DNA from: Quercus robur
Lineage: Eukaryota; Streptophyta; Magnoliopsida; Fagales; Fagaceae
Assembly (NCBI RefSeq): GCF_932294415.1
Contig: NC_065536.1
Location: forward strand, 5,590,974 to 5,654,973
DNA length: 64,000 nucleotides
Reading direction: 5' to 3'
Shown here in pieces: positions 9,839 through 47,407 of this stretch; within the stretch, counting starts at the first letter, position 1, and the number at the start of each line of letters is the position of its first letter. The position numbers and the translations under genes were made by a program. The notes beneath the pieces are model-generated. The model saw only the letters and a list, made by a program, of their open reading frames with translations, was not told the origin of the DNA and did no database searches.

Positions 9839-9863
9839 ACCTTAAATATCCATTGTTTTTATA

Positions 9864-9872: not shown

Positions 9873-10120
9873 GGGATAATTATAGTAAACCCACCTGAGG
9901 TTTGGCCCGATTACACTTTACCTACCCGTGGTTTAAAACTTATCACTTTGCCCACCTGTACATCAATCCGTTACCCCCCCGTTACCCACCTCACCCTCAG
10001 ACGTTAGAAAAACACCCTTTTATGCCAAATTAGAACATTACACGGATCAAACAACGCGAACTCACTCTCTTTTCCCCACGAGCCCTACAAACGCGAAAAA
10101 TCCATTCTTCATCTGAGGTT
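9873..10120 (+). repeat. MULE terminal inverted repeat, left
   Basis: It pairs with 15413-15660 over 248 bases; I count four mismatches. It ends before the transposase gene and probably carries its promoter, as Mutator TIRs usually do. Confidence 0.95.
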
Positions 10121-10632: not shown

Positions 10633-13600
10633 ATGGACGTTGAAGTGAAATTGGAGGTACATTATGGGGGTGCTTTTGTGTGGAACCCTAGTTTAGAGTA
10701 CTTTAGTGGGAAAGTTGAAATAGTGTATAGGGATGCTGATTTGCTTGGTTATTTTGAAATAAAAGGTATATGTGAGGAATTGGGGATTGATGAACCGTGG
10801 AAGGTTTATTATTTAGGTCCTGGGGGCAACTTGGAGCAAGACTTAAGGCTCATAGAAGATGATCAAGATGTGGAACCCTTGTGGAACCCTAGTGAGGGAG
10901 GGCCAAGAGACACCATCATACTGTATGTGGAGAGTGGTAATGCTCCACTTGCAGTTGAAGTTCCTGATGGTGCAGGGGTTGGTGTAGGAGCTGGTGCAGG
11001 GGCTGCTATAGGGGGTGCAGGGGCTGGTGTAGGGGGTGGTGCAGGGGCTGGTGTAGGGGGTGGTGTAGGAGCTGCTATAGGGGGTGATGGTGTGGAGGAG
11101 GAGTTTGATTGGTTGAATGAAGGCCTGGAAGGAGAAGACTTTGCTGATGACATTTTTGGTGAGTCTTCTCCACCTCACATAGTGCCAGATGAGCCTAACA
11201 CTGTTCCAACCACTGATACACCTCATCCAAACACTGATACACCTCATCCAAACACAGATGCACCTGGCCCAAGTAATGTTCCTCCTCCAAACATAGATTT
11301 AGATGAAGAGTGGGCTGAACCAGGTTTAGAGGATGATATGGCAAGTGTGGATAGTTCTGATGATGAGCAGGGGCCTGGCAATTTGGAGTTCAATGAGAGG
11401 ACTAATATGGAAAATGTTAGGTTGGCAAAAGGGATGAAGTTCCCAAACTCCCAGGTGTTTAGGAAGGCTTTGAGGGAGTATGTGATTCAGAATCACATTG
11501 ATGTCAAGTGGAAGTTGAATGAGAAGAAGAAGATTTCTGTACATTGTAAGAACAATTGTGGATGGAGGTGTTATGCCTCAATAGTGACTGGAGAGTGCAC
11601 ATTTGAGATCAAGACATTTTATCCTGAGTGTACCTGCCCCCTATCATTTAAAAATGGGCAAGTTACATCAGCCTATGTGGCAAAGAGGTATTTGGAGGAT
11701 TTTGGTAAGAATCTTAATTGGGAGGCCTCAGGTATTAAGCACCATGTGATGCAGAAGATTTCAGTTAATTTAAGTCTTAGTCAGGTGTATAGATCAAGGA
11801 AGGCAGCTAGGGGGCTGATTACTGGGGATGAAGAGGCTCAGTATGGCCTACTTAGAGATTATGCAGAAATGATATTAAGGACAGATGTAGGAAGTAGGGT
11901 GATTCTGCAAACAGAGATGGAAAATGAGAATGCAGAGCCCAAGTTTAAAAGGATGTACATTAGGTACAATGCTCAGAAGGTTGGCTTTCTAGGTGGTTGT
12001 AGACCCTTTGTTGGGCTGGATGGCTGCCACTTGAAGGGTAGGTTTGGTGGGCAATTATTGTCTGTCACTGCCAAGGATGGAAATGACAATATATTCCCAG
12101 TGGCAATGGCTGTGGTTGAGCAAGAGAACAAGGATAGCTGGACCTGGTTCTTGGAGCAGTTTGCTGATGACATTGGCAGGCCAGATGAGCTCAATCTAGT
12201 ATTCATCAGTGACAGGCAGAAGGTATTATCATCTAGCTCATGTTCATGACTTCATTACATGCTTACCTTTTTACATGCTTACTTGCTAACATTGAATGCT
12301 TACTTGATTGCAGGGCCTTTTACCTGCAATGGAGACTCTATTCCCAACTGTGGAGCACAGGTATTGTGTGAAGCACATATACAACAACTTCAAGGTTAAC
12401 CACAAGGGCATGGAGTTGAAGAGTGTACTGTAGAGGTGTGCTGGCACAACATCAGCCAGGGAATTTGAGAGAGGGATGGACCATCTTAAGAGTTTGGATG
12501 AAGAAGCTTGGCAGTACCTAGCTGATATAGAGCCTGCACAGTGGACCAGATCCCACTTTTCTTCAAGAGCTTTGACAGATTGTATGGTAAACAATCTGAG
12601 TGAGAGTTTTAACTCTATGATTGTGAAGGCTAGAGACAAGCCCATCTTATCAATGCTGGAGTGGATCAGAGTTAGGCTTATGAGCAGGCTGTATATAAAG
12701 AAGGCTGGCATAGAAAAGTATGATGGCAATTTGTGTCTAAGCATACAAAAGAAGTTGGAGCAGTTAAAATTAGAGTGTAAGAGTTTCAGTGCAGTTCCTT
12801 CTGGGAGGTTTGTGTATGAGGTTGACAATGGGAGGGAAAGGCATGTGGTGGACTTGGTAAATAGGACATGTAGTTGTAGAGTATGGGACTTGACAGGAAT
12901 CCCTTGCAAGCATGGAGTTGCAGCCATTTTTGTGAATCGTGAGAAACCAGAAGACTACACCCATCCATGCTACTACAAGGATGCTTATGTGGAGACATAC
13001 AAGACACCCATACCTCCCATGCCTGGCCAGTCTGAGTGGATGTCAAGTGGCCAACCCAAGCCTGTTGCATCTACTGTCTATAAGCCACCAGGCAGGCCAC
13101 CCATGAAGAGGAAGAGAGATGCTGATGAGCCGAACCCTTATAAGGTGTCTAGAGGAAACAGGCCAGTGAGGTGTGGAAGGTGTCAACAGGAAGGGCACAA
13201 TGCAAGGGGATGCAAGGCCAATGTCACTGGTGAGACAGCATGGGAGAGGAGGCAGAGATTGCAGAAAGGGAAATCTGTATGTTTTTACAAAAAAAATTTT
13301 ATTCAAATGCAAAATTCCAATAACTGACACTGTAAAAACATACTCATATTTGGTTGCAGGGAAGTGGAAGGCCTTCTACACACAGGCAAGGATCCCAGGC
13401 CCCATCTTCATCACAGACCCAATCCTTAGCTCAGCCCCCACCAACACATCAGCCTTACACTATGACCTCATCCAACCAGGCAGCAAGGTCACAGCCACAA
13501 GCTCCAGCTCCACAGCCACAAGCTTCATGGTTAGGGCCACCAGCTCCATGGTCACAGAACCCAAGTCAATGGTACTCTTCAGACTTTAGGTACACAGTTA

Positions 13601-13910
13601 GAGGAGCTCCTTGGTTCTCTTCAAGCCAGCCAACACCACACACTCCTGCAAAAACATGGGACAGTAGACCACAATCATCACAGGTACTGTAGTGTTAGGT
13701 TTGATGTTTTATTCATAAAATTGTGATGCTGGTAGCTAACATGTGAATTCTTGTACTTTGTAACCTACAAGACCACCTGCTACCAGAGGAGCTGCTTTGA
13801 GAGGAAGGGGTGATGCAGCTAGAACTCAGAAATGTAGAACAAGAGGTGGAAAGGCCAGCTGTGGTGTGAAAGGCAGGGGCAGGGGCAGTAAATGAAGACT
13901 AAGTCAAGAC
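10633..13910 (+). pseudogene. MURA-type MULE transposase with an internal stop
   Basis: Exons by splice sites and frame: 10633-12222, 12314-13276, 13360-13683, plus a short RG-rich last exon after about 13772 whose frame I could not settle. The start at 10633 directly follows an AG acceptor, so a 5'UTR intron is likely. Order: PB1-like N-terminal domain, a Gly/Ala-rich stretch, MuDR DNA-binding region (CKNNCGWRCYASI), DDE core (GLDGCHLKG, FISDRQKG, NLSESFN), SWIM zinc finger (CSCRVWDLTGIPCKHG) and a CCHC knuckle (CGRCQQEGHNARGC). All three acidic catalytic residues are present, but codon 12431-12433 is TAG where the family usually has Trp. This copy therefore makes a truncated protein unless the stop is read through. 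Confidence 0.9.
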
Positions 13911-14308
13911 ACTTTTGTTGCTATGTATTAGGGTTATGTAGTGTTAGGGTTAGGCAGGGTAGACAATGGCAGGGCAGACAATGGCAAGTCACTTTTTGAT
14001 GTAGCTGTTCAAACACTTTTTGTATTTTTGTAAGTTTTGTAAACATTGGGCAGCTGCAACTGTTTTGGTTGTTGTACCAAATGCCTTATATTTACTGGTG
14101 GTTGATGAAAGACTATTCAATGCCACCTTCAAATATGTATACAATTTCCCAACTTAATGACAGGTGTTCAGAATTATTGTTCTGATTATTGCAGTTTGTC
14201 ATATGCGTTATTATTATATGAGTTTGTTTATGTGTGCAGGGTGTATGTGTTGAATAGCAGGTGTATGTGTTGAATTTGTTGTCTTTTCTTGCAAGTTGAC
14301 AGATTGTC

Positions 14309-14398
14309 ATGCACTTTAAATTCACTTTCAACACAATTGTCTTCACACAATGCACTTTAAATTCACTTTCAACACAATTGTCTTCACACAATGCACTT
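14309..14398. repeat. 41-bp tandem repeat inside the MULE
   Basis: Two full copies and a partial third of a 41-base unit beginning ATGCACTTTAAATTCACTTT, lying between the 3' ends of the two convergent MULE genes. Confidence 0.85.
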
Positions 14399-14632
14399 TA
14401 TGCACAAACCAACATAGCTCACAACATCCAACAAAACACAAACACCAACAGCTCACAACTCACAAGTAGCCAATTCACTTTAAACAAAAATACCAACAGC
14501 ATCTAACATAAATAACACTTTATCTTAAAAAGGCTTATATTATTAAGTGGCTTCAAGCTTATATTACATAGTTCTCATTCTCAAAAAATTCTTTCATAGT
14601 TCTATTACAATACAATTGAGGACCAGCTTATA

Positions 14633-15276
14633 TTACAACCCATCAGGCATACTCAATCTTATTATTCCAACATTTTCACTTGAGCCAAAACATGAAAACA
14701 ACATAACCAAAACAAAAAAAAACCATGACAGAATTAGTGCAATTCTGCACTTTCTCTCTTGCTTTAAAGCTCTCACTGCTATCTCCTTGGCTTGAACAGA
14801 GGAAGCTCGAAACTTTCTCTCCCTCTCAATGGCTTTTGCTGCCTTGTCTTGAGCAATTTCTGCCATTTGGGTAGCTTTTGCTGCTGCCTGAGTAGCTTCT
14901 CTTTCCCTTTCACATGCAAGTTGCAGCTCACTCTGCAGTAAATCCAGCTTTTGTTGCACCAAATGGGCAGCTTCATTCCCACGCACACAAGTGGGATTAT
15001 CAATCCATCTAAAGAAAGGGCACTTGGGACCAATCTGTTCATAAATTGAATTGAACACATCACATTCCAATCTCATGCGAATCAGCTAGATTAAGTAAAA
15101 AGTATACTTACCTTATATCGGCTACAACCCAGAAACTTTCTCCCAAAATTATCCACTGTCAGACTTGTTCTCAGCACACAAGTCTCATATGTACACAAAT
15201 GCCCACATGAACCTGAGAATTTCCACTCGAAGAAGACATCGATTATCAACTCCCTGTGAATCAACGCTATCATCAA
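14633..15276 (-). CDS. GRF-type zinc-finger protein carried by the MULE
   Basis: Two exons: 15112-15276 and 14633-15034, with a GT-AG intron that joins in phase and completes the domain. The protein is about 188 residues. The GRF finger runs CGHLCTYETCVLRTSLTVDN, then FGRKFLGCSRYK, then, after the intron, KCPFFRWID. A coiled coil (LQSELQLACEREREATQ and beyond) and a C-terminal hydrophobic segment (ALILSWFFFVLVMLFSCF) follow. GRF fingers bind single-stranded nucleic acid in other proteins; here the role is unknown. A second ATG at 15239, in another frame, gives a common start for this family (MSSSSGNSQ) before hitting a stop. A one-base indel near the N-terminus is therefore possible. Confidence 0.78.
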
Positions 15277-15412
15277 AACTTGAAACCCCAGCTCAGAACC
15301 ATAAAGCAGAAATGTCGTACCTGGTGATGATCTATCTTCGAATATTCAACGACTCAAAACAACCCAAAGTCAGAACCTCACCCTCACACGAAAGCACGTT
15401 CAAAAAAATCAA

Positions 15413-15660
15413 AACCTCAGATGCAGAATGGATTTTTCGCGTTTGTAGGGCTCGTGGGGAAAAGAGAGTAAGTTCGCGTTGTTTGATCCGTGTAATGTTC
15501 TAATTTGGCATAAAAGGGTGTTTTTCTAACGTCTGAGGGTGAGGTGGGTAACGGGGGGGTAACGGATTGATGTACAGGTGGGCAAAGTGATAAGTTTTAA
15601 ACCACGGATAGGTAAAGTGTAATCGGGCCAAACCTCAGGTGGGTTTACTGTAATTATCCC
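15413..15660 (-). repeat. MULE terminal inverted repeat, right
   Basis: Inverse of 9873-10120. The GRF frame begins about 137 bases inside its inner edge, so it may supply the GRF promoter. The second 9-bp duplication follows at 15661-15669. Confidence 0.95.
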
Positions 15661-15669
15661 TTTAATCAA

Positions 15670-17889
15670 TTTTCTGTCTCCATTCTTTGAGGCGTGATGA
15701 TCATTATCATGGTTTTCGATGCTCAAATCTTGGTCTCATGGCTACCTGTAGATATACATATTGGAAAAATCAGTAATAGTACCTTACTTTGTCAGTATTT
15801 CATATATATATATATATACACACACATATTACAAATTAAAAGCAACCCAAATTTTTAAAAAAAAAAAATTTGAAAGAAAAATTTACTACAACACACACAT
15901 AAAAATATACACACAAAGAAACTCTGAATTCAATAATTACAAACAATATAAATTTCTAAACATTACCCAAAAAAAAAATCTAAAATGATAGTTAAAGTAA
16001 AGACACTCACATAAACACAAATTTTTCAAAATGCAAATATGATTTTTGTTAAAATTAATCCATTAGTTCCCATAAAAGCTATTCCATTGCACGGAAGATA
16101 TACCATTGATTCTAAAGATCATATATAATAAGCACATAAATTAGATGAAATTTACAAAAATGACTTAAACAAAAGGCAACCCGCACACAAAACATATTCA
16201 ATTTGATGAAAAAAAAAATTAAGAATGGAATTTTATGAAAAAACAAAAAGAAGAAGGCAAATACATATATGCAAGTTTCATAGGTAATTACATATTAGGG
16301 TTTTTTTTTTTTTTTTTTTTTTTTTAACTTTATCCCAAAAGATTAGTTAACGTTATTAGCTAGATTGTTATTAGATTTTTTTTTTCAAAATTTTTTTTTT
16401 TTTGTTTACGTTAAAGTTAATACATATTACCTTTTTTTTTGTTACTTTATCCCAAAAAAAAAAAAATAGAAGAAAAAATAAAACTTTTAAATTTGTTGCA
16501 ATTAGAAAATAGATGGTGTAGGATAAATGTTTATCCCAAAAAAAATGACTAACTTAAGCTAATAGTAGAATTGTTACTTTATAAAAATTTTTAAAAAAGA
16601 AGAAGAAGAAGAAGCTGATACAAACACTTATTGTTACTTTATCCAAACTCTAAAGAAATTGATAAGATCAAAAACATTTTTTTTTTTATCTAAAAGCTTA
16701 TTGTAGTTTGGTGTAGCCACTTGGCTCAACAATTATATATATTTTCAAAAATCTAAAAAAAAATTCTGCAATTTGGTGAAGTCATTGGGAGCAACCACAG
16801 CGTCTAAGCTCAACTTTTATTATATAGTATATGATGTGTCTAAGAGTATTAGTATCAGACTCAATGCAATATTAGCTATAAATTATTGTTCTCTATTTAA
16901 ATATCTTTTCTTCCCCTCAATTCTATATCAAACAAACACTACTCACATCAAACCCACATCAACTACAGATTCGCCTTAGATTTGTCAACAATGCACAAAT
17001 CGGCCAGATCACGAAACACGAATCCTCTTATTTCAAACAACATTTGCCGATCAACCTCCATTAACCATCATTTGTTGCACTACATCCCTGCCAATTCATT
17101 TGCATCAGTGCATGAGAGACAAGAGAAACTGTGTGATGGAGAGAGAGAATAAAAACAAAACAAAACCAAAAAAAAAAAAAAAAAAAAATTGTTTGTTGAT
17201 GAGGAGTATCTCAATAGACGTCATAAGGTACTATTCATTTGTTAGTTTTACGCATTAAAATGTCGAGCTTGTAGCACTGTGTTTTAAAGTGGGTTTAGCT
17301 ATATTTTTAACTAAATACTATTTTGTCAAGCCTATTAAGAATGCTCATATGGAGTGATTAAGTGTTAATTTTAATTTGATCATGTCATCTAAGAGACTAA
17401 AAATGATTACTTTAAACTTCAAGGGCTAAAGTCATTCATGAGCTTAGGGATTAACGGGACAATTTAACCAAAATATCAATGTCTGTATTATATGGGGTAC
17501 CCTTGTCTCATATTCACCCATGTTCTTGTGCTTCCCTATAGATGATTTTAGCCATGAATTTATGCACTTAGTTTATAAAATAGGATTGGTGTTACCCACA
17601 TCACTAGTCTACTTCAAGAAAGAGCAATTTCGCCCCCGGGGGGGGGGGGGGGGGGGGGCGGGGGGTGTGTTGAAGGTGATTTCATAGAGCCTCATGCACC
17701 ATTTGAGAGCTTAAGCCCCCATTCAATATACAATTTCTAACCATAAACAAAATAAAATAGAAGGTGTAATTATGTTATGTGGTCATTGGAACAAGATTTT
17801 GCCTCCTACAACTTCAACTCATCACTGTTATTCTCACCTAAATGTATAAATAAAATTAAGTATAAAAATAAAAATGCAAAAGCTAATAC
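15670..17889. other. intergenic, no gene; low-complexity tracts
   Basis: No gene found. 15830-16010 resembles 9640-9790 and 40790-40940 (shared phrases ACTACAACACACAC and GTAAAGACACTCACAT), so a piece of the PPR 5' flank is repeated on the far side of the MULE. Long T and A runs fill 16300-16700. Confidence 0.6.
17638..17665. repeat. G homopolymer run
   Basis: Twenty-one consecutive G, one C, then six G, preceded by CCCCC. It is unusual in otherwise AT-rich plant intergenic DNA. Confidence 0.9.
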
Positions 17890-27836: not shown

Positions 27837-28010
27837 AAATGAGAAGTTTGGATCTTTATCCTTATCTGGCAGTGGATTTCTCACAACCCACAAAAATCTT
27901 TGATCACTGTTTTCTAAACCCACCGCTATTTCTTTCAACTGTTTCTCCCAAAAAGATCCCAAGCTTCTGAAACATAGAAACACAACGCTTCGGCTCGGTT
28001 GTGAGTTCAG
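27837..28010 (-). pseudogene. UDP-glycosyltransferase fragment
   Basis: Fifty-eight codons match family 1 plant UGTs in the region before the PSPG box: [17 protein letters not shown], then [20 protein letters not shown] and VRNPLPDKD. Homology ends abruptly on both sides and the PSPG box is missing, so this is a scrap, not a gene. Confidence 0.75.
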
Positions 28011-28226
28011 TCAATTCAAAAACTCGTGCTCTTTTCCATCTTGATTGGTGTCTGATGTTTGGGTTTCAGTTTTTAGAGCATACAGTTTTTGATCTCTCGA
28101 TCTCTCTCTCTCTCCTTCTCCGTTCTCTGTATCGCAAGTTTTTTTTGGGAGTATTGCAAGCCCTTTTAATTGTAATTTTAAGCGGTTAGTTTTCTTTTTA
28201 TACCGGGAGGCTTTTAAGCGGTTACT

Positions 28227-28412
28227 AATGATATGTCCACGAAATTTTTACAATAAATTTTAAGTGACAAGTTGTTACTAGGTATTAGTGTTGGGATAAA
28301 AAAGTAATCTTAGTGTTATGTTTAAATTTGAACCAATAACAACTAATCATCCATGATTTGTTATGAAAATATTGTAAAAATATTGTGGACGTAGCATTTC
28401 TCATATAGTATA
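28227..28412. mobile_element. foldback MITE, about 190 bp
   Basis: The ends (TGTCCACGAAATTTTTACAA and, inverted, ACGTCCACAATATTTTTACA) pair imperfectly over about 45 bases. The same sequence appears twice more, inverted to each other, inside the arms of the 29067-30342 element (about 29435-29610 and 29808-29975). Confidence 0.65.
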
Positions 28413-28420
28413 TATGATAT

Positions 28421-28446
28421 GTATATATATATATATATATATATAT
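28421..28446. repeat. (TA)n microsatellite
   Basis: An uninterrupted run of alternating T and A directly after the MITE. Confidence 0.9.
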
Positions 28447-29057
28447 TGATATATTGATGTGGTTGCTATTCTAACAAAGTTGAATACTCCTACTTCCAAT
28501 CAACATTCAACAATCAATTCATAAGCATTAATAAAAAATAAAAAAATAAAAGAAGATGAAGAAGAAAAGAAAAGCAAAACACCATCATAGTTCTTATTGC
28601 GAATAAAAACGGTAAAAAAAAAAAAGAATTGAAAATGGGGGTCAATGTTTCTCTAAAAAAATTTTAAAAAAAAATGGGGGTCCATGGATTCAATTGGGTC
28701 GGGTTGGAATTAAAACAAAGAAACCAAACCAACTTCTCCCCCTTGAGATATCTCCGCTCATGATAATTTCATTTTTTATGGGATGATAATTTCAAAATTA
28801 AGTCAATCCAAGCCGTAGTACCAAGAAAAGAGTGTTTGATTGTGTGAAACACTGAAACCACAAAAATCTATTCTTGTGAGGTTCATTGCAGAGAACCCTT
28901 CAATGAGAGTGTATTAAAGTTTATGGTTCACGTGGAGGAAATTATTATAGAAAAATTTTAAAGGTTCATAGACTAATGTACTAGAGGCAAAGGCAACCAA
29001 GAGCGGGTTTGTTTGCAAAGTATGCATAAAGGGTGGTCTACGATATATATATATAAA
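28447..29057. other. intergenic, no gene
   Basis: Nothing supportable. Confidence 0.5.
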
Positions 29058-29066
29058 GGTTTTGTA

Positions 29067-30342
29067 GAGTCTTTTGGCTTAATATTGGTAAATCTGAAAT
29101 TTATTTGCATTATAGGTACTGTTTGAACTTAATTGGTGAATTGAGGAAAGAGAAAGAATTTCGGCAACAGTGTTGCCGAAATTCGACAAAAGTAGGAGAG
29201 AGAAAGGGAAAAAGTTGGAGAGAGAAATATTTTGAATTTCAGTAACAGCGTTGCTGAAATTCCTCTGCCCAAACTCCCTGCCCGAGTCCTGTGTCCTGAG
29301 CAATGCAGCAATGCCATTGCCGAAATAGGGAAAAAAAGAAAATTTTTTTTGGTAATTGTGGCAATGGCATTGCCGAAAATTGGATGGGAAAAAAAAATGT
29401 TGTTGCCAAAATCTGGGAAGAAATTTAAAAAAACGTGTTACATTCACAATATTTTTATAATACTTTCACAACAAATCACAGGTGATTAGTTATTATTAGT
29501 TCAAATTTGATTTTAACACTGAGATTACTTTTTTAATCTAATAATAACAACCTGCCACTTAAAATTTGTTGTAAAAATATTGTAAAAATTGTGTGTACCT
29601 ATCATTTCTTTAAAAAAAAAAATTAAATAATAGAATTGTGGCAATGGGATTCACCTATTTCAGGAATCCCATTGCCACAATTCTATTCCCTTTTTTTTTT
29701 CCTCGCATTTTCGGCAATAGTATTGCCGAAATAGGTGAAAATTTTTCTCACCTCTTTCGGCAATCCCATTGCCACAATTCTATTTTTTTTTTTTTTTTAA
29801 GAAATGATAGGTACACATAATTTTTACAATATTTTTACAACAAATTTTAAGTGGCAAATTGTTGTTATTAGATTAAAAAAGTAATCTCAGTGTTAAAATC
29901 AAATTTGAACTAATAATAACTAATCACCTGTGATTTGTTGTGAAAGTATTAAAAAAATATTGTGAATGTAACACATTTTTTTAAATTTCTTCCCAGATTT
30001 CGGCAACAACATTTTTTTCCCCATCCAACTTTTGGCGATTCCATTGCCACAATTACCAAAAAAAAATTTCTTTTTTTTCCCTATTTCGGCAATGGCATTG
30101 TCGCAATTGCTTAGGACACAAGACTCGGGCAGGGAATTTGGACAGAGGAATTTTGGCAACGCTGTTACCGAAATTCAAAATCTTTCTCTCTCCAACTTTT
30201 TCCCTTTCTCTCTCCTACTTTTGTTGAATTCGGCAATACTGTTGCCGAAATTCTTTCTCTTTCCTCAATTCACCAATTAAGTTCAAAGAGTACCTATAAC
30301 GCAAATAAATTTCAGATTTACCAATATTAAGCCAAAAGACTC
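29067..30342. mobile_element. Mutator-type foldback element built of short palindromes
   Basis: The 1276-bp element is almost wholly an inverted repeat: arms of about 560 bp (29067-29650 and about 29762-30342) around a short centre that is itself hairpin-forming. The termini are GAGTCTTTTGGCTTAATATT and its inverse. A perfect 9-bp duplication GGTTTTGTA flanks it (29058-29066 and 30343-30351), so it was moved by a Mutator-class transposase. The termini do not match the MULE at 9873, so it belongs to another family. It encodes no transposase. Each arm includes a copy of the MITE seen at 28227. Confidence 0.88.
29157..30255. repeat. about 13 copies of a GGCAA-n-TTGCC palindrome within the foldback
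   Basis: Short hairpins of the form TTTCGGCAA-core-TTGCCGAAA recur, for example at 29157-29183, 29234-29262, 29634-29684, 29708-29731, and around 30083, 30152 and 30228. The central 3-5 bases vary (AGT, AGC, TGGCA, TAGTA). The outer bases are kept, with TTTC/GAAA sometimes changed to TTGT/ACAA. Confidence 0.85.
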
Positions 30343-30351
30343 GGTTTTGTA

Positions 30352-32458
30352 AGTCTTGACTATTTGTAATTGTTCCTTTATTTTGAATTATATAAGACTG
30401 TTTCAATTTGTGTCATTGGAGTGGTATTCATTTGCAGAGTTTCTTAATTAGTTTTCTACTTGATTACCAAATCTTGTATTGTACTTTATCCTTTATATAT
30501 TCTTGTCTTATGGTGGCAATCTTTGATGTGTGTTGAAGTATAATAATATTATGGAGACTTTGAAAATTAATTAATAATTTCACTACAAATTTAACAAAGA
30601 GGTCTAAACAAGAATTTTTTAAAGCTATGGTAGCCACCCTAAGTGACGAATTTGAGAGTGAGTCTGAAGGTGAAGGTGTCGAACATATGGTTTTTTTTTT
30701 TTTTTTTTTACATTTTTTAAAGCCTTATTTTTTTTTTAAAATACAACTATAATTTTTCCACTTTTAGCAAATAAGGATTTTTTTTTCTTTTTTTTTGGTG
30801 CAAAAAGCTAATCAAAGAAGATCCAATCTATAAGTGATTTAAATTCTAGTGATTTTATGTATATATACATACTTCTTTTTCTTCCTTTGTGGAATTATTA
30901 TATTATGACAATTATTATCAAACTATTAATTTAAGGATTATTGGAATTTTGTATAGAGGTTTTTTATTTTATTTTACGTGTACAGAAATAAATACAAAAA
31001 AAGAGGTTAGAAAGTATTTTTACTTTATTACCAAATATTAGGCTAAATCACAAATTGCACCCTCTAACTTTATCTAAAATTCAATTAAGTTATATAACTT
31101 CAATTTCATTCAATACAATTCTCTAAGTTTCATGCTAGGTCTTAATGGTTTCTCTACCATGGGAACCTATCTTAATGCTAGTCCTCAAGAACCCATGATC
31201 TCAAGGTTTGATGATGTGGCTAGATTAGTGTTTGTGAGAATTTGGTAGTGGGGGTTTTGGGTATAATTACCGATTATTGATAGTCGATGAGTGAGGTGTT
31301 TTGGGTTTTTTGTGTTGTGTGTTGCGTGTTCTATTGGTTGGCCGTGTGTGGTGGGGTTGGGATCACCATGAGCCACCAAAAACCCATTCACCACCACCCA
31401 CAAATCCCAAACACTTAAAAACTCAAAAATTTCTCACTACTTTGCAATCCAATAGTAGAAGCTACAAAAATAAGGCATTCTATTTTTTAATCCTTCCTTT
31501 TTCATGTGCTCTTCTTTAGTTTAATTATTTTTTAAATACCAAATAATAATTTATATTATTTAAATTATTTATTTTTTTCAAAAATATTCTTCATTAATTT
31601 TATGACAAAATAACAAAATTAAGTTGTTTTGGGAGTCATTACCAGTGCAATTTTGACGAACGCTAATAGAGAAGGATTAAATTAAATAAAGTTGAAATTT
31701 AAGGAGCCAAATTGAATAAAATCAACAATACAAGATTGAATTGAATTTTAGGTAAAACTAAAATGTGCATTTTGTAATTTAAGCGAAATATTATTATTAT
31801 TTAAATTGTGGTCCACTGTAGAAGCATTATTATATCTTCAACGTTGTATTGTTTTCTTCCACTACAACGCACAGGTACTCTCAAAGTCTTCGCTCCACCT
31901 GAACCTCTACTCTTCCCTGTAACCAAGCACCATCTGAACCCATCTCCCAAAGTCAACTCCTAAATGTGAAGCTGTCCACCTATAATTTGAGTTTCCACTT
32001 CCAACCCAGAAAGAAAGTACTCATATCATATTAGTATATTGTCAACTTCTTTTCCAGTTTCTATAGCAACTCCTCAAGACACTACAAAAAACATGATTTG
32101 TTTCAACCCACTTTTTCCAAGGGTTCACTGAAAATGGTCGAAACAAACACTAACAAACTGGCGCTAATTAAAATCTGACTAATCTAGTTACAATGGTCAT
32201 TAAAACCCTTGAAATAAACCAAAACACTAAAATCCGCGTAATTGCTGCCTCCAAATTTTTACATTTTTCAACGAAATTCTAACACAACCCTTAATAAAAG
32301 ATATCCAAATGTTTCAACCCTCGAAATAAAGTCTCTCTCTCTCCCTCAAACTCAAAATTCAGAAAACCAATTTTCGAATAAAGTCTTTGCTCACTCTCTT
32401 AGAAAACCCATTTTCATTTTGTTCAACCTTCCTCCAAACTAAATGAGAACTCCTAGAA

Positions 32459-36744: not shown

Positions 36745-39700
36745 CTTCATTTCCCTAGAGTCAAGAATGCAAGTTTCACAACATGTAATCACTTATAAAT
36801 GGATAAGGAGATGAATGAAAGCTCCCAAGGATATCAAATTTTGATGTTTCATGCAATTGATCAAGTAGGAAAATGAATAAGAAAACACTGAATGATTACT
36901 ATTTTAGAAGTCCAGGCATAACAACTAAAAACAAAAGGCAATATGTGAAGTGCCTTACTAAAAGAATGTTAGAGGAATTTCTGAGTTTCAAGTCATATTC
37001 TCTGTCTGCATCATCTCAAAAAAATTTGAGGACTTATTGTCTTATTCCCTGAAGCCTTCCGACCTGATTTAGATAAAGAATAGCAAACTCCGAAATCTAA
37101 AACACAACTAACAGCAGAATTACTTGACAATGAAAGAATCCAAAATCCATAAATGGCAATTGTCCAAAGCTGCAAAATCAACCGACCACTCTTTCTAGAA
37201 AACAGAGCCCCAAAATTTTTTAAATATAACAGCAACAAAGATTGATGAATGAGAATTTAGATTTACATCAAAAACAAGATCCTTTAAATGTAGACAACAA
37301 GCACTACATTGTTACAACACGTAAGTTTGAAGGGTATTATTCACCAAAGAGGAATCGAGGGCAAGGAAGGGTAGAAAGCATCTATGTTTAACAAAGAACG
37401 ATATAGGTTGAATGTATAACCTAACTATTTCTTACAAATTTAGGAGAAAAGGAAAGCTTTGCATATGAGGTTAGTAATATTAACAAGGGGATTGTAGGTA
37501 TGCCCAATCAATCAAAGGTCAGAATATTAGTCGAAGTAGAAAGAAGATAATCTCTAATATTAACTACTAAATAAGGAAAATCTACTAGTATTAATGGTCT
37601 TTGGTTGATATTTAATTGACCTATCACAAGCACCCAAATTGTCACTTGAGCATCACCAACTACAAACAAACTATTCTGTCATTTCAAACATAAACAAAAC
37701 TAATTCCATGTTTGCTATGTTGCATCAACTGAAACTGAAGATAACTATCCCAAAATTAACAACACTAGTGCCCAACATATTTTCAAGGAAAGATAAAAAA
37801 AATAAATAGTAAAAAAAATGGAATGGAAAAAAACAACCAAGCGCCAATACAAGAAAAGAAATATCACCAATAAAAGAAAAACTTGAAACAAATATACCCT
37901 GTCCTTAATCATTATCAATATGTCAATATGATTACAGTAAAAAGTAAAACAATAAACTTACTCCATTATAGAGATGGCTTTATCTATTGGGAGGGAGGGA
38001 GACATGAAAAAATTCTAGAATGTTCTTATCTACTTGATTAGATGACAGCATGTCAAATACTATGCTTGCAGTGGTTGCATCTGCTGAAAATCCCTTGTCA
38101 ACCATTATGTGGAGATATTTCGTCGCCTTTGATGTCTCATTATGTCGCAGTAACCCTTGGATAATTCTGTTATATGTGCGATCGTTGGGAGAGCACCCAT
38201 TCCCATCCATTTTCTCAACCAACTCACATGCTTCATCTAGTAGTCCCTCTTGGCAAAGCCCCTTGATCATAATATTGTAAGTTGGAACATCAGGCTGCAA
38301 TCCTTTGGTAGGGAGACTATAAAAGAGTTCTCTAGCAATTGTAAGCTTCCTGATATTACAGAAACCGTCAATCAAGATGTTGTAATAAATCAAAGCATTA
38401 TGGCTCAGCCTTTTGTCATCAATCTCTTGAAACAATGCCATTGCCTTAGCGATTTGTTTATTCTTAAGAAGGCCATCTAACAAGATGGCATAGGTCTGGG
38501 GATTTGGATGTTGGCCAAAAGCTTGCATGTTATGGAATAGCTCAAGCGCAGCTTGGGGTCTCTTTACTTGGCAAAAGCCACCCATAAGAGTGTTGTAAGT
38601 CACAACATCAGGAATCATTCCTTTGTTGGACATTTCATGAAAGAGACGCATTGCCTCATCAATTTTTTTACTTTTGCAATATCCATTTATCAATATGCTA
38701 TAGCTAAACACATCAGGCAAACAACCCCTCTCAACCATCGTATTAAATGCTTTGATAGCATCATCCATTTTGTTTTGCAAACAGTAACCGTCAATCAAAG
38801 AGTTATAGGTGACGGAATTAGGCTCAATGCCTCTTTGAACCATTTCAGTAAAAACTTCTTTTGCCTTTGTCAACATCCCTTCCTTGCAAAGTGTGTCCAC
38901 CAAAATGTTAAAGGTGTACACATCTGGAATGGTCTTCCTTTGCATCATCTCATTCAACAAAGTGGCAGCCTCCCTCCACCGGCCAAAATTGCATAGTCCT
39001 TGAATTAAGCAATTGTAAGTGACAATGTTTGGCTGAATGCCTTTACTCATCATTTCAGACAAAAGGTTTGAAGCCTCAGTTACCAATTTGTCCTTACATA
39101 AACTGTCAATGATCGTGCTATACAGCACCACATTAGATTCAAAATTCCGTTTTTCTACTGTCCTTAGCAACCTAATAGCTGCACCAGTCTCCCCAATCTT
39201 ACACAGACCGTTTACTATTGTCCCAACAGTAATCACATCAGGTTGATACCCTTTGTTCTCCATTTCTTCTACCAACCTCACAGCTCCAGAAACATTACCT
39301 TGAAGACAGAGACCTTTAAGAAGAGTGTTTAGGGTTACATGGTCTGGTTGATAACCAAGTTTCAAAATTGTTGCTAAGACAGAGAACCCAAAATCGACCC
39401 GGTTCAAATGGCAGTAACAATTAATCAAAACATTGAGAGTACAAACATTGGGAGTAATTCCAAAGGAGCCCATATCTCTAATTAGAGTACTGACTATGGA
39501 GTAATGCTTCATTCTTGCAATGGCACCCAACAATTGAGTAAAATCGACAATGGAAGGCAAAGGGTGCATGTGAAGCATTTTATCAAACAGGTCTAAGGCA
39601 TGATCAAGATTCTTAAAGGTTCTACATTTGCAGTGATCTCTCACAGATTTCAAAAACTGATTCCGATTCTGATTAGGGATTTTTGCATTTTCTCTTCTAC

Positions 39701-40989
39701 TGCTAATATTATTAGTAGAATAAGTAAAAGCATGAAATGGAAGGCTTCCTCTAATAATCAAACGACTGTATACAGAAACAAGAGAGGATGTTGATTTACC
39801 CATTTCCTCGAGAAGAAGAAGAAGCAAAGCTAGTTTGGTGTTCACAATGACTGACTCAGGCAGCTACCAATTCGGGTCGGGTTTGGTTTCAGCTGAGCTC
39901 CGGAACTTGTAAAAGGAGAAATCGTGGTGATGGAGTTGGCAAATCAGAGAGCGAAACTGGAAGCTGTGAGCTGTGAGTGGGAACCGTACGAGGGAGTGAG
40001 AATGAAAGTGTATTTGCTAATGGAAAACTCATTCAAGTAAAATATTGTTTAGTTAAAAGAGCCCTAACAAAACAAAATAAATTATTGTTGATATATTTTT
40101 ATTTTTTTATTTATTATGATATATTTTATAGTATTACTTCCTAATTTTTTTAAATTACTAAAATACATTTTTGGTCCAAATTTTAATTTATGAGATTTTT
40201 TTTTTTGAAAAATAATTCTTATTTATGAGATTTAAGTGGTCTCTTTTATTTGTTAACTAGTTTTATGCCATACAATGTACGGTTTAGTGAAAGAATTATA
40301 TATAAATTTTAAAAATATTTTTTTGATAATATAATTAAATTTAATAACAAATAAATAGTAAAAATATTTTATAGATAATGGCAAGTTTTAAATTTCTAAA
40401 AGCTCTTAGTAGTAATTTTATTTCAAAAACACTAATTAATGATTGAAGAGAAACGTTATATCCGGTTAGACTAAAACAACTTTTACTTGTTCAAATAACA
40501 ATTAAGGCGGAGTAAAGAGAGGAACAACAAATAATAATTATAACATATGGACATAATAATATTTATATTTAATTATAATGACTCGCTTGCATCTCAAAGT
40601 GTCAAATTAATATCAACACTAAACATGCTAGGATGTTTTTGTTAATTAATGTAAATAAGCAAAAAATTAATATCAACATCTAACACCCTACTATTGCATG
40701 AATTATGATTAAAATTGACCTAATATTTTTACTTTAACCCCAAGAAATCATCCCGAATTTACAAATTAAAAACTACCCAAATTTATATATAAGAAAAAAT
40801 TGAAAGCAAAATTCACTACAACACACACATAAATATATACACACAAAGAAATTCTAAATTCATTAATTACAAACAATATAAATTTCTAAACATTAAAAAA
40901 AATATGGAATTAGATTTAAAGTAAAGACACTCACATCAAAGTTGACTTAACTTTGACAGAAGGGGGAAGTCATGTAGATTTCACATGAA
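36745..40989. repeat. segmental duplication, copy 2 (PPR locus)
   Basis: Matches 5770-9838 in the same orientation. The 3' flank homology extends further left (to about 36180) with the third copy at 17890-19260. The right end, after the phrase GTAGATTTCACAT, runs into a (TA)n tract. A degenerate Helitron-like end is also present at about 40256, as in copy 1. Confidence 0.9.
37980..39845 (-). CDS. P-class PPR protein, restorer-of-fertility-like, copy 2
   Basis: Intact intronless frame of 621 codons with the same layout as copy 1: presequence-like start, 14 PPR motifs from residue 99 to 589, half motif at the end. I count 42 residue differences from copy 1. Ten fall in motif 1 (99-133), only four between 134 and about 465, and 28 after that; residues 1-98 are identical. 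Residue 413 (position 35 of motif 9) is Asp here and Asn in copy 1. Residue 589 (position 35 of motif 14) is also Asp here and Asn in copy 1. A mitochondrial RNA-binding role is inferred from the family; no target can be read from the sequence. Confidence 0.93.
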   Translation of the reverse strand: MNTKLALLLLLLEEMGKSTSSLVSVYSRLIIRGSLPFHAFTYSTNNISSRRENAKIPNQNRNQFLKSVRDHCKCRTFKNLDHALDLFDKMLHMHPLPSIVDFTQLLGAIARMKHYSIVSTLIRDMGSFGITPNVCTLNVLINCYCHLNRVDFGFSVLATILKLGYQPDHVTLNTLLKGLCLQGNVSGAVRLVEEMENKGYQPDVITVGTIVNGLCKIGETGAAIRLLRTVEKRNFESNVVLYSTIIDSLCKDKLVTEASNLLSEMMSKGIQPNIVTYNCLIQGLCNFGRWREAATLLNEMMQRKTIPDVYTFNILVDTLCKEGMLTKAKEVFTEMVQRGIEPNSVTYNSLIDGYCLQNKMDDAIKAFNTMVERGCLPDVFSYSILINGYCKSKKIDEAMRLFHEMSNKGMIPDVVTYNTLMGGFCQVKRPQAALELFHNMQAFGQHPNPQTYAILLDGLLKNKQIAKAMALFQEIDDKRLSHNALIYYNILIDGFCNIRKLTIARELFYSLPTKGLQPDVPTYNIMIKGLCQEGLLDEACELVEKMDGNGCSPNDRTYNRIIQGLLRHNETSKATKYLHIMVDKGFSADATTASIVFDMLSSNQVDKNILEFFHVSLPPNR

Positions 40990-41094
40990 AGTTGAATATA
41001 TATATATATATATATATATATTTTTAACACAAGTTATCCAAAAATATAAGTAAATGCTTACGTAGAAAAATTATTAATAAGATGAAAAGTCACT

Positions 41095-41844
41095 TGTAAG
41101 GACACGATTCTCGAGCGGCCCAACGGTGGCGTTGGGCTCACGCGTGATGGATCCCTCACAATAAATTTTGTAGAGAGTGGGCTTGAAAGGCTGGAGTTGG
41201 ATCACGGGACGTTAGTACAGGCCGGACATGAGACAAACCTAGACTGGAAAAGGCTTTAGTCCGGTTATCTAACCCATTAACTTTATGAATTGAGGGATTG
41301 GGCTCCTCGGATAATGTCCGAGGAGCACTAATGTATCCTCCGGTTACCTGTCGATGGGTTATCCCTGGTGGAGCATATATACTTTCCGGGCATTCTCATT
41401 CCTGGAGTCTTTCTTAGACAATGAGATGGATCCCCCTACTTTGTTACCTTGCGTTTTCTTTTATACTAGCCTACGTTCATTATCCCCCGTCCACGTGTAG
41501 GGTCGACTTTTCCAGGACAGAGATTTGTCCCATCAGTCTAATCCCGAAATTGTGGGAGATGGTCCATAAAGCCTAAGAATCCGGCTCTGTTAGGTGCGAT
41601 GTCATGTCAATGAAGGGTATTAAGGACTATTTCCCTGAGATATTTTCTGATCTTTTAAGTTTGCTTGTATTCCACTTTCGTCAATGGGATTCTGGGTCTT
41701 CCGAGGACCGAGCAGTCCTCGGACGTATCTTTGGGCCACATCGGGCTCACTATTTTTGGGCTTGGGCCCTGGCCTCCTTTAGTTTGGGGCCTGTGGACTC
41801 CCTATAAGCGAGCGAGCCGGGCCCATAAACTATTGGGCCCCACA
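41095..41844 (-). repeat. LTR, left copy (3' LTR on the minus strand)
   Basis: 750 bp. It differs from the right LTR at eight positions by eye, all transitions. Confidence 0.95.
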
Positions 41845-42129
41845 ATAGCCCCTCAAAACCCTGCTGTCCAACGTCTTGGTTGGAAAGGTGGGTTTTGGTA
41901 ATACCGAGCCTTAACTGCGGCTCATTTAATTCGGCCCTTGATCAACGTTGGCGACTCTTCACCTCCACGAGGAATGCGTCGGTCTACAAGATATTCCCCT
42001 CGATTTACGCGTGATGCGCTTATTCCGTTCGGTTATCCGTAGCACGCCTTTAATATCTTCCTTTTACGAGACCTCCCCAACCTAACGGTTACTGATAGCG
42101 TGGGGGAATGAAACGGATGCACATTTATT

Positions 42130-42900
42130 CGCAGATTTCCTTGGGGATCAGAACGTGTTACGCACCCTCGTCTTACTCCCCTATATAAAGAGAGAGCACA
42201 AAAGGTGATTCTCTCATATCTGAATCCCTCAAGCCCTTCTCATAGTTCATTTCTTCCGTCTGGTTATTCCTTATCCAATAATACATCCTCCATAATAGTC
42301 AACCATGAATAAATCCTTCCTTTCTCAGAAACGCCATGTCCTAACAAAACTTGAGATGGCTCGGTCAGGGCAAGGATGGCGGAGACTCAAGATTTGCCTC
42401 CCCATTCTTTTAGCCAAAATCCGAAGCAGGGACCCGTCACACCTCACTTCCGGTGTGACTGAGTCGAAAACCTCCCTTGTCATCTCCATCCGCTCTCTCA
42501 TGAGCATACCTAATATGGCTCCCCTTCTCCCTCTTTTGCTCCTTTTACTTTCTTTTCATTGCTTCCCTCTTCTTCTCCTCCTTCCTACTCATGTCCTCCA
42601 TCTTCTCTTTCCCTTGCTTTCTTCAGCGACAAGAGTTTGCTGAAGTGCTTCCATGTGTTCCAATTCTTCTTCCTTCTCCTTCTCTTCTGTAAAAGGCTCT
42701 TATCCTGATATGAGCAGTACTGAGGCAAAGATTTCAGAGAGACTTTGAAGGCGCTTTCAGAAGACTCCTGGCGGTTTACTTATCTGTATTACGGATGTTA
42801 TTACTGCTTCGGCAGTTCATTTTTGTATAGGCTTGTGTAAGCCCTTCCTTGTACGTTGTAATAATAATTTTTTACATTAATAAAAGTTACTGTTATTCTA
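42130..42900 (+). promoter_or_regulatory. possible antisense transcription unit 1 inside the LTR element
   Basis: A strong TATA box (CTATATAAAG, 42181-42190) on the strand opposite to the element is followed by a pyrimidine-rich leader, a short frame from 42305 and an AATAAA-like end near 42880. The phrase TTTTAGCCAAAATCCGAAGC is shared with unit 2 (as TTTTAGTCAAAATCCGAAGC). No known protein is encoded. Confidence 0.4.
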
Positions 42901-43269
42901 TTTCGCATGTTCTGTTTATATGTTTTAATAAATTTGCAAGTTCTGCTCGGCACAGTAGTATAGCATTTGAACCAATGACAACTAAGGCCAAAATACTTGC
43001 TAATAAAAAGACGCCATAATAACTTTAACAAAATTATTATTCGACATAACAATCCGACCAGTGAGGAACGAGACTTACCTTAACATTAGTCGCGATGGGG
43101 ACTAAGTGCTTGATAAGGTGTAAGAAGTAATTATCCGAGGACATGTCACCCTTTCAATGAGCAATTTCCTTAGGCCAACGATCATCGGTTCGTTACGCCA
43201 TATTCTTAACACACTGGCCTTAACCTTTTCTAGTATTTAAGCCGAGAAACTTCTCCATCCGAGTAGTTG

Positions 43270-43590
43270 ATTTCCCAAAAGGCCTGAGTCCGAGAACTTC
43301 GCACAGCTAGGGTTTTGTTTAGAACGTATACTTTTTCTTTTAGGTGCTCGGTTTCCCCATAGGCTTGAGTCCGAGGGCCATGCAAGTCCTAAGTTCTGTC
43401 CAAGACTTATAAGATATCTTTTTTATGTTCTTGGTGTCCCTCTAGGCTTGAGTCCGAGGACCATGCAAGTCCTAGGTTCTGTCCAAGACTTATAAGATAT
43501 CTTTTTCGTACTTGGTTTTCCCATAGGCTTGAGTCCGAGGACCATGCAAGTCCTAGGTTCTGTCCAAGACTCTATGAGTTCAGATTCTCC
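43270..43590. repeat. minor array, three to four units of the 70-83-bp repeat
   Basis: Three clear copies (ATGCAAGTCCTAGGTTCTGT in place of ATGCAAGGCCTTGGTTCTGT) and one decayed copy near 43270. It lies about 1.3 kb from the main array. Confidence 0.8.
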
Positions 43591-43889
43591 CTTTCATAAG
43601 GCATTTCCCAAGGCGCCGAACAGGGGTTGTCCTCGGCCACGGCCATTGCTCGGCGTGGGCCACAGTACCTGGGCCCTCACGCAAAGCAGGCCCGGGGCCA
43701 CGAATCCACTTAGCCCATGAATTAAGAGATATTTCTGCAACTTCTGGCCACGTGGTACTCTCTGATATCACAATGACCGAGGTGCGCCTTTACGAGGCTC
43801 TTTAATCTTGTGGTTGCAGTTGATGTTGGAAGTTGAGCCAGAACTGTTTTGTCTGTAGCGTTCCTTGGGACGCCGCGTGAGTTGACTGC

Positions 43890-44560
43890 TATCACCTTGT
43901 CTTTTCAAATAAATGGGAGGGAGAGAAAGTTGCTTTATATACGCACAAATCCTTCAGATTTTCTCCCACATCACAGCTTCCATATCCGGAGCTCTCCTCC
44001 CTTAGCATAACATGTTTAAGGCAAGGGTTGGAAAGAAAGAACTTTCTCCGCCGCAGATGCACCCTGCCTTTATGAGACTCAGAATAGTACGGTATGGGCA
44101 CAGGAAGCTTAAGTTCAGGAGAATACTTCATTTCGACCGAGGGGGAAGGGAATCTTTCCCTCTTTTAGTCAAAATCCGAAGCAGGTTCTGTCCATGCCAG
44201 AATTTTGGTGTGGCAGAAGAAAGATTTTCCGCCATCAGCGCCTCTGCTTTGCGGCAGGCGTATATTTAGAGAAAGGCCCTCAACCTCCAACTCCCTGCAC
44301 CTTTCCTTCAACGGTGTCAGGTTCAAGTTGGGTCTCTTTTGCTGTTTGAGTTGTGGGCATGTGAAAGCATTGAGGAAGAAAAAGGTCTTGGAGCTGTAGC
44401 CAACCTCTCCTCTGATCTACCTCCTCAGCTTCATTTTGTTCTCTTGTATTTTCCTTTCTTCTTGGTTATGTAGTGAGCTTCGACACAAACTGATTCCTGC
44501 TTTTTCATTGTACGCTGTACTATTTCTTTGTTTTAGTAAGAATGGAAATTTCTTTACTTG
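43890..44560 (+). promoter_or_regulatory. possible antisense transcription unit 2 inside the LTR element
   Basis: TATA-like TTTATATA at 43934-43941, then a leader and a body that shares a phrase with unit 1. The tail, TTGTACGCTGTACTATTTC, resembles a plant 3' end. Non-coding as far as I can see. Confidence 0.35.
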
Positions 44561-44854
44561 TTTTGAACACTGTTTCTTTGACAACACTGTTTCTTGAATG
44601 GTTGTGCCCTATGTGTGCGTTTCTTCAAGAATATTTAGAGCAAAATGGCTTGAAGCATAATTTAACTAACTCCAATTTACCAACACTACCAGGCATTATA
44701 TCGATAATTCATAATAAATCAAACTTAAGAAAACTAACCGGGATATCAGTTGGATATTCTGTGATAAGCGCGCGAATATCGTCCAAGGCTGATGATTTCT
44801 AAGCAATCCATCTGAGCAATCGACTGGGATATAGGGAACTCCGATGATGCTTTT

Positions 44855-46436
44855 GTGTATTTGGTTTCCCCACAGGCTTGGGTCCGAGGACCATGCAAGG
44901 CCTTGGTTCTGTCCAAAACTTGTGAGGTATCTTGTTTGTACTTGGTTTCCCCATAGGCTTGGGTCCGAGGACCATGCAATGCCTTGGTTCTGTCCAAAAC
45001 TTTTTTGTATTTGGTTTCCCCATAGGCTTGAGTCCGAGGACCATGCAATGCCTTGGTTCTGTCCAAAACTTATAAGATCTCTTTTTTGTACTTGGTTTCC
45101 CCATAGGCTTGGGTCCAAGGACCATGCAAGGCCTTGGTTCTGTCCAAAACTTATGAGATCTCTTTTTTGTACTTGGTTTCCCCATAGGCTTGGGTCTGAG
45201 GACCATGCAAGGCCTTGGTTCTGTCCAAAACTTTTTTGTATTTGGTTTCCCCATAGGCTTGAGTCCGAGGACCATGCAATGCCTTGGTTCTGTCCAAAAC
45301 TTTTTTGTATTTGGTTTCCCCATAGGCTTGAGTCCGAGGACCATGCAAGGCCTTGGTTCTGTCCAAAACTTTTTTTTATTCGGTTTCCCCATAGGCTTGA
45401 GTCCGAGGACCATGCAAGGCCTTGGTTCTGTCCAAAACTTTTTTTTTGTATTTGGTTTCCCCATAGGCTTGGGTCTGAGGACCATGCAAGGCCTTGGTTC
45501 TGTCCAAAACTTTTTTGTATTTGGTTTCCCCATAGGCTTGAGTCCGAGGACCATGCAATGCCTTGGTTCTGTCCAAAACTTTTTTGTATTTGGTTTCCCC
45601 ATAGGCTTGAGTCCGAGGACCATGCAATGCCTTGATTCTGTCCAAAACTTTTTGTATTTGGTTTCCCCATAGGCTTGAGTCCGAGGACCATGCAAGGCCT
45701 TGGTTCTGTCCAAAACTTTTTTGTATTTGGTTTCCCCATAGGCTTGAGTCCGAGGACCATGCAAGGCCTTGGTTCTGTCCAAAACTTTTTTTTTGTATTT
45801 GGTTTCCCCATAGGCTTGGGTCTGAAGACCATGCAATGCCTTGGTTCTGTCCAAAACTTATAAGATCTCTTTTTTGTACTTGGTTTCCCCATAGGCTTGG
45901 GTCCGAGGACCATGCAAGGCCTTGGTTCTGTCCAAAACTTGTGAGATATCTTGTTTGTGTACTTGGTTTCCCCATAGGCTTGGGTCTGAGGACCATGCAA
46001 GGCCTTGGTTCTGTCCAAAACTTTTTTGTATTTGGTTTCCCCATAGGCTTGAGTCCGAGGACCATGCAAGGCCTTGGTTCTGTCCAAAACTTTTTTTTTG
46101 TATTTGATTTCCCCATAGGCTTGAGTCCGAGGACCATGCAATGCCTTGGTTCTGTCCAAAACTTGTGAGATATCTTGTTTGTGTACTTGGTTTCCCCATA
46201 GGCTTGGGTCTGAAGACCATGCAAGGCCTTGGTTCTGTCCAAGACTTATAAGATATCTTTTTTATGTACTTGGTTTCCCCATAGGCTTGGGTCCGAGGAC
46301 CATGCAAGGCCTTGGTTCTGTCCAAGACTTATAAGATATCTTTTTTATGTACTTGGTTTCCCCATAGGCTTGGGTCCGAGGACCATGCAAGGCCTTGGTT
46401 CTGTCCAAAACTTGTGAGATATCTTGTTTGGAGGTC
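44855..46436. repeat. 21-unit tandem array inside the LTR element
   Basis: Twenty-one units of roughly 60-83 bp, each with TTGGTTTCCCCATAGGCTTG, then GTCCGAGGACCATGCA, then GGCCTTGGTTCTGTCC, then AAAACTT. Two main linker types occur: a short one (T-run then GTATT) and a long one (GTGAGATATCTTGTTTGTGT or ATAAGATCTC). The units lack stop codons in several frames, so long frames cross it on both strands. These are by-products of the repeat. Confidence 0.95.
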
Positions 46437-46637
46437 AGCCCCTTGGCCATGACGGGGGGAGCAGATTTGGGGTCGGAAGCCCCTAGAGAAACCCACGCCG
46501 TTAGCGGTGCAAGGCGTAACCCCTAGCAGAAGTTTATGGCGGAGCAACAACTGCACGTCGCCGGAAATGAGAAAGACTCGTGAATCTCCGCTTGCTAGAG
46601 AGCTGACTTATGCGCCACTCGCGCCAACGCGCAAGCC

Positions 46638-46655
46638 TTCCCACAGACGGCGCCA
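46638..46655 (-). other. primer binding site of the LTR element
   Basis: On the minus strand this is TGGCGCCGTCTGTGGGAA, two bases after the LTR end. This form is common in plant gypsy-type elements. Confidence 0.8.
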
Positions 46656-46657
46656 AT

Positions 46658-47407
46658 TGTAAGGACACGATTCTCGAGCGGCCCAACGGTGGCGTTGGGC
46701 TCGCGCGTGATGGATCCCTCACAATAAATTTTGTAGAGAGTGGGCTTGAAAGGCTGGAGTTGGGTCACGGGACGTTAGTACAGGCCGGACATGAGACAAA
46801 CCTAGACTGGAAAAAGCTTTAGTCCGGTTATCTAACCCATTAACTTTATGAATTGAGGGATTGGGCTCCTCGGATAATGTCCGAGGAGCACTAATGTATC
46901 CTCCGGTTACCCGTCGATGGGTTATCCCTGGTGGAGCATATATACTTTCCGGGCATTCTCATTCCTGGAGTCTTTCTTAGATAATGAGATGGATCCCCCT
47001 ACTTTGTTACCTTGCGTTTTCTTTTATACTAGTCTACGTTCATTATCCCCCGTCCACGTGTAGGGTCGACTTTTCCAGGACAGAGATTTGTCCCATCAGT
47101 CTAATCCTGAAATTGTGGGAGATGGTCCATAAAGCCTAAGAATCCGGCTCTGTTAGGTGCGATGTCATGTCAATGAAGGGTATTAAGGACTATTTCCCTG
47201 AGATATTTTCTGATCTTTTAAGTTTGCTTGTATTCCACTTTCGTCAATGGGATTCTGGGTCTTCCGAGGACCGAGCAGTCCTCGGACGTATCTTTGGGCC
47301 ACATCAGGCTCACTATTTTTGGGCTTGGGCCCTGGCCTCCTTTAGTTTGGGGCCTGTGGACTCCCTATAAGCGAGCGAGCCGGGCCCATAAACTATTGGG
47401 CCCCACA
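46658..47407 (-). repeat. LTR, right copy (5' LTR on the minus strand)
   Basis: Pairs with 41095-41844. Confidence 0.95.

Follow-up and report, generated by a model that had tools for sequence, protein, structure and literature searches.

The window analysed here, a stretch of DNA of 64 kb, contains a whole copy of a Mutator-type (MULE) foldback element. The element and its parts are as follows, with the strand given for those parts to which one was assigned.

29067-30342: whole foldback MULE copy, 1276 bp
29058-29066: left target-site duplication, GGTTTTGTA, perfect over 9 bp
30343-30351: right target-site duplication, GGTTTTGTA, perfect over 9 bp
29067-29180, + strand: outer left arm, a terminal inverted repeat that is 97% complementary to 30229-30342
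30229-30342, - strand: outer right arm, 97% complementary to 29067-29180
29156-29184: left site A, GAATTTCGGCAA-CAGTG-TTGCCGAAATTC; TTTCGGCAA begins at base 93 of the element
30226-30253: right site A, one base shorter than the left site A
29234-29262: left site B, a second 12-5-12 palindrome with partly decayed edges
30148-30176: right site B
29303-29325 and 29356-29378 (within 29303-29378): further 9-5-9 palindromes of the left arm
30030-30052 and 30084-30106 (within 30030-30106): mirror palindromes of the right arm
29436-29609: inner AT-rich, MITE-like module of the left arm
29800-29973: counterpart of the inner module, mirrored in the right arm
29636-29680, 29709-29731 and 29755-29777 (within 29636-29777): central palindromes between the arms, their number varying among relatives

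Both the bounds of the element and its perfect duplication had been placed correctly by a first-pass annotation made from the letters of the window. A 20-base terminus, with up to three mismatches allowed, was found in the 64-kb window solely at the two ends of the element (0 expected). The two halves, of 638 bases each, are identical in 574 of 612 aligned columns. The predicted RNA fold of the element reaches -909 kcal/mol, compared with -255 +/- 7 kcal/mol for 20 dinucleotide shuffles, and 541 of its 588 predicted pairs lie on the diagonal of one long hairpin, close to the double strand of about 560 bp, paired nearly end to end, that had been described for it. The arms span nearly the entire element and are internally repetitive, which is the build of a foldback element. 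Since the longest stop-to-stop frame is just 128 aa, the copy is called gene-less. Outside the element, a solo AT-rich piece at 28244-28396 is 78% similar to part of the inner module of the arms, and this likeness suggests that a MITE was captured by the ends of the family.

The mini-palindromes that make up the arms are variants of GAATTTCGGCAA-N5-TTGCCGAAATTC. Nine palindromes of the form TTCGGCAA-N5-TTGCCGAA were identified in the 64-kb window at up to three mismatches, all of them within the element (0.17 expected), and about 11 can be counted by eye with looser half-sites. The array of about 13 palindromes first reported is therefore real, its count being slightly generous, and the GGCAA...TTGCC edges with changing centres ascribed to it are present here as well as in the relatives sampled.

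At least dozens of relatives of the window element are present in the host genome searched (786 Mb, 42 contigs). The search for the terminus that the first-pass annotation had proposed returned 95 genomic places for a 27-bp query at up to two mismatches (control, 0), and a 264-bp arm query gave at least 71 matches, a lower bound because 40 of 488 candidates were scored. Fifty-four elements, from 389 to 20,282 bp in length, were bounded. Target duplications of 8-10 bp were observed at 41 of these (37 perfect and 4 with one mismatch), compared with 1 of 2862 mismatched flank pairs in the control; at the other 13, no target duplication was seen. In the MULE superfamily, target-site duplications measure about 8-11 bp. 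One family member (L032) is nested in another, each with a duplication of its own. The target duplications, the long terminal inverted repeats and the transposase encoded by large relatives with the same ends place the family among the MULEs, and the earlier description of a Mutator-type foldback element from a mobile family was borne out. The window element is thus a real, well-bounded foldback MULE and ordinary as a class; it is unusual for a strict two-part site that has been multiplied through its arms.

Five of the large relatives are coding elements.

C40:56120619-56133685: 13,067 bp; GAGTCTTTTGG ends, the right end with one substitution; duplication with one mismatch
C6:17689168-17709449: 20,282 bp; GAGTCTTTTGG ends, the right end with one substitution; duplication
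C1:9951402-9965278: 13,877 bp; GAGTCTTTTGG ends; duplication
C2:37098545-37112402: 13,858 bp; GAGTCTTTTGG ends; duplication
C39:45997299-46011261: 13,963 bp; GAGTCTTTTGG ends; duplication

Frames of all five coding relatives match the transposase, and Pfam analysis of the frame pieces identified in each the MULE domain (PF10551) together with the MuDR DNA-binding domain (PF03108) and/or SWIM (PF04434). A plant-mobile-domain frame likewise matches all five, at 68-100% identity, with C2 and C39 scoring for PF10536 itself, and a further frame without a clear family adjoins it. The link between the plant mobile domain and MULEs is already known. C39 is intact, with a transposase frame that is stop-free for 911 aa and arms of about 3 kb at 90% identity. 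Genome-wide, 141 matches to the transposase were found, 44 at 72% identity or more and the other 97 at 45-49%; a stop-free 911-aa frame was present in 6 of the 141. The lineage at 45-49% identity, a sister of the family's own, has many frames that run uninterrupted for 881-949 aa, several of equal score, and may possibly have been active recently.

The left arm of the window element can be aligned to C40 (91% over the first 232 bp) and to C6 (79% over the first 585 bp), and because of these alignments the window copy is best read as a gene-less derivative of the coding family. In the five coding elements, half-sites are spread over both arms. Each of the five has two or three more in the interval from the accessory region to the transposase gene, located in C39 0.8-1.0 kb upstream of the transposase start; these are single half-sites and not 5-spaced pairs. 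A second, different MULE lies in the window at 9863-15670, with 258-bp ends that are 97% alike and transposase frames at 10591-12249 and 12476-13327 (PF10551, PF03108, SWIM). Mobilisation of the foldback copy by this element was ruled out by its different ends and by transposase pieces 25-42% identical to those of the family.

The spacing of the two-part site is close to invariant across the genome. TTTCGGCAA-N5-TTGCCGAAA occurs at 286 genomic places, where simple arithmetic on 18 fixed bases gives about 0.01, and when any spacer from 0 to 30 was allowed, 287 exact head-to-head pairs were recovered, of which 286 had a spacer of exactly 5; the control for these counts was the pattern read backwards, which is weak for a palindrome. 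Within 49 elements, 77 adjacent exact head-to-head half-site pairs lie 5 apart, the next distance being 47, and for outward-facing pairs the distance varies from 13 up. At least three exact half-sites were found in each of 53 elements, the large coding ones included; an origin of the palindromes in the window copy alone, an outcome that the first-pass annotation had named as an argument against a mobile family, was rejected for this reason. Position is also largely fixed. Of 100 ends, 90 have their first site starting at base 93, 3 at base 91 and 1 at base 105, and in 6 it was unrecognised; the exact 12-5-12 site is present in 66 of 106 ends. Part of this fixed spacing may reflect common descent, since most ends have no net indel between the terminus and the site. 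The number of central 44-bp units differs among copies, with up to four identical units in one of them (L011), and as the size of the inner array varies, most sites cannot be strictly required.

Conservation was assessed over 106 ends of 53 elements, with none dropped. Across all 5512 end pairs, the two 9-bp half-sites are 95.0 and 95.8% identical and the 5-bp core 58.6%, with flanking values of 82.1% (bases 12-30), 83.7% (bases 31-89) and 90.8% (bases 119-150); bases 1-11 of the terminus, at 96.1%, show conservation similar to that of the half-sites. In the 932 pairs that are diverged in bases 119-150 (<85%), the half-sites remain at 94.1 and 94.4%, the core falls to 36.3%, and bases 12-30 and 31-89 stand at 77.4 and 76.3%. 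In the 1216 pairs diverged in bases 12-89 (<78%), the corresponding values are 94.2 and 94.8% for the half-sites, 39.7% for the core and 82.1% for bases 119-150. Aligned copies therefore keep their edges and vary in their cores, the pattern that the first-pass annotation had proposed to look for. Flank identity depends on the alignment, being 64.0% in diverged pairs over bases 116-150 (99 of 106 ends fitting a loose pattern) versus 82.2% over bases 119-150, and the diverged set behind the latter value was chosen on bases 12-92, which lowers flank values there. Divergence is greater in the core than in the flanks, a difference suggesting that palindromes are exchanged between elements and making the flanks an imperfect neutral yardstick.

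Among the changes in the 12-bp half-sites, 43 of 52 are C>T or G>A; the others amount to 9 in 2539 cells, compared with 578 in 9225 flank cells. As the changes are mostly of the deamination type, copies seem to decay in this way after insertion, with the half-sites retained in the lines that multiply. On these comparisons, the palindrome looks like a predicted dimeric protein-binding site under selection. Mean arm identity is 95.8% within copies and 84.3% between copies. Homogenisation of the arms within each copy was considered and found no support, as the best match from another element is closer than an arm's own partner in all but 15 of 46 cases.

We consider it likely that the window element is a gene-less MULE foldback whose palindromes represent the recognition site for a putative element-encoded protein dimer. 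The element would be little more than the two long terminal inverted repeats of the family joined together, and would for this reason fold back on itself. Its insertion, with a 9-bp duplication, would most likely have been the work of a transposase encoded by a relative of 13-14 kb that shares its ends. The mini-palindromes would be copies of the recognition site, formed by two inverted half-sites of 9-12 bp (GAATTTCGGCAA) around a spacer of fixed length (5 bp) and free sequence, with one site at a fixed place near each end and more in arrays along both arms. A dimer of the element-encoded protein is predicted to bind these sites. The simplest candidate is the transposase, which has a MuDR-type DNA-binding domain and would suit a site A that keeps a constant place at the two ends. 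Binding of the transposase would bring the two ends together and could possibly also act on the expression or silencing of the element, the single half-sites near the transposase gene allowing a regulatory or anti-silencing role. As to its identity, we infer that the binder is either the transposase or a VANC-like anti-silencer. Changes in array size, up or down, probably come about through duplication of entire palindromes, which best explains the four identical 44-bp units in L011.

VANDAL elements belong among the MULEs. They encode VANC; in the accessory frame of the window family, Pfam finds a plant mobile domain. According to the available text of two studies, Arabidopsis VANC proteins bind short motifs arranged in tandem arrays in non-coding element DNA and remove methylation there, with VANC21 and VANC6 binding or affecting 8-9-bp motifs that lie in tandem repeats within non-coding parts of VANDAL elements (PMC5735166, PMC10398659). 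By analogy, the arrays of the window family could be targets of an element-encoded anti-silencing protein, either the plant-mobile-domain protein or the transposase, an explanation that we regard as unlikely but the most serious of the alternatives. It would account for the half-sites found both along the arms and near the transposase gene in the coding elements, and it draws on the CpG contained in the half-sites, on the VANC precedent and on a review which, in its accessible portion, suggests that TE-encoded PMD proteins may counter silencing (PMC8616336). VANDAL elements also resemble the window family, as far as these sources describe them, in combining transposase and accessory genes with non-coding DNA in which one short motif forms arrays (PMC5735166, PMC10398659). 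However, transposition is the better fit for a site A with a fixed place near both ends, the half-sites close to the transposase gene occur singly, and the VANDAL arrays are described in the available text as tandem repeats in elements with degenerate ends, unlike the long and well-matched arms observed here (PMC10398659). In its broader form, the proposal would be that a MULE lineage carries sequence-specific anti-silencing or self-regulation of a non-VANDAL/VANC build, in which the plant-mobile-domain protein or the transposase would bind the 12-5-12 dimer sites of the arms and the half-sites upstream of the transposase gene, with gene-less foldback copies spreading as mobile arrays; we put this forward tentatively and think it rather improbable.

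A recognition site for a putative dimer also explains the data better than the view that the palindromes are functionless by-products of replication slippage, template switching or gene conversion in self-complementary DNA, which we judge very unlikely. The variable number of central units, the identity of tandem units within a copy (four in L011) and the covariation across copies of the arms of outward-facing palindromes, as expected from repeated foldback copying, would all fit such an origin. It gives no reason to expect half-sites conserved far beyond their flanks, the low frequency of non-deamination changes (9 in 2539), the 5-bp spacing in 286 of 287 pairs or the fixed position from the end. 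The first-pass annotation had left the choice between a transposase-binding array and a slippage product; the palindromes are now best read as a protein-binding array, and the growth of the array is probably explained by slippage or duplication.

Maize Mu killer is a source of hairpin RNA that silences coding relatives. That the window element mainly serves in the same way is hardly probable, for although its near-complete hairpin in the RNA fold, the presence of 662 of its 2138 21-mers (both strands) in one or more of four coding elements, and the sharing of at least one such 21-mer by 43 of 44 other copies below 3 kb would suit this role, there is no Rfam match at gathering score within 28000-31500, and a hairpin RNA would be a consequence of the structure that leaves the conserved half-sites unexplained.

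The FARE foldback transposons of Arabidopsis reportedly go back to Windsor and Waddell in 2000. Compared by description only, they share with the window family a plant host, the foldback form, long palindromic ends and classification with the MULEs, whereas a dimeric motif array with a fixed spacer goes unmentioned in the available text (PMC3169594, PMC4486113). MuTAnT of Medicago, as described in the accessible part of its report, likewise consists of modular foldback MULEs that are mostly non-coding and have a coding relative, but 90% of its members measure 200-300 bp, they target TA microsatellites, and a motif array is not described there (PMC4486113). Tm1 of root-knot nematodes is similar in its Mutator/foldback character, its 9-bp duplications, its coding and other members, and its composite ends, in which short repeats vary in number; it differs, in the portion of the source available, in having direct tandem repeats of about 14 bp rather than inverted two-part sites, and a Phantom-like transposase (PMC3169594). 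Multiple-tandem-TIR MULEs from tomato and other species are plant MULEs with a reiterated terminal sequence, which has been suggested to raise recognition by the transposase, although they duplicate whole TIRs according to the available text, whereas the window family reiterates a 29-bp palindrome through the arm (PMC3310237). In the foldback, MULE and plant-mobile-domain literature covered, including available parts of PMC2955051 and PMC7156037 and with subscription literature mostly outside, no paper was recognised as describing such a motif array, and a text search with the terminal and half-site letters returned only papers on skin biology, judged by title or abstract.

Descriptions of foldback elements usually centre on shape, and the comparison of many copies separates shape from signal. 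In this family, the palindromes resolve into a single strict site of two parts, with a spacer that is free in sequence and halves that, deamination apart, change little. As the DNA target is defined and there are candidates for both the transposase, with its stop-free frame, and the accessory protein, the role of long repetitive MULE ends becomes directly testable, and a possible second case of motif-array anti-silencing is offered.

Other repeats were observed elsewhere in the window. At 41091-47407, two direct repeats of 754 bp are 98.8% alike, with TCACT on both outer sides by eye, and are perhaps the LTRs of a young retroelement; a minisatellite of 69-83-bp units lies between them, at 43338-43571 and about 44861-46430. 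A PPR-like gene, recognised by eye, is duplicated at 6433-9837 and 37566-40986 (3.4 kb at 92.8% identity), and each copy retains a 621-codon frame.
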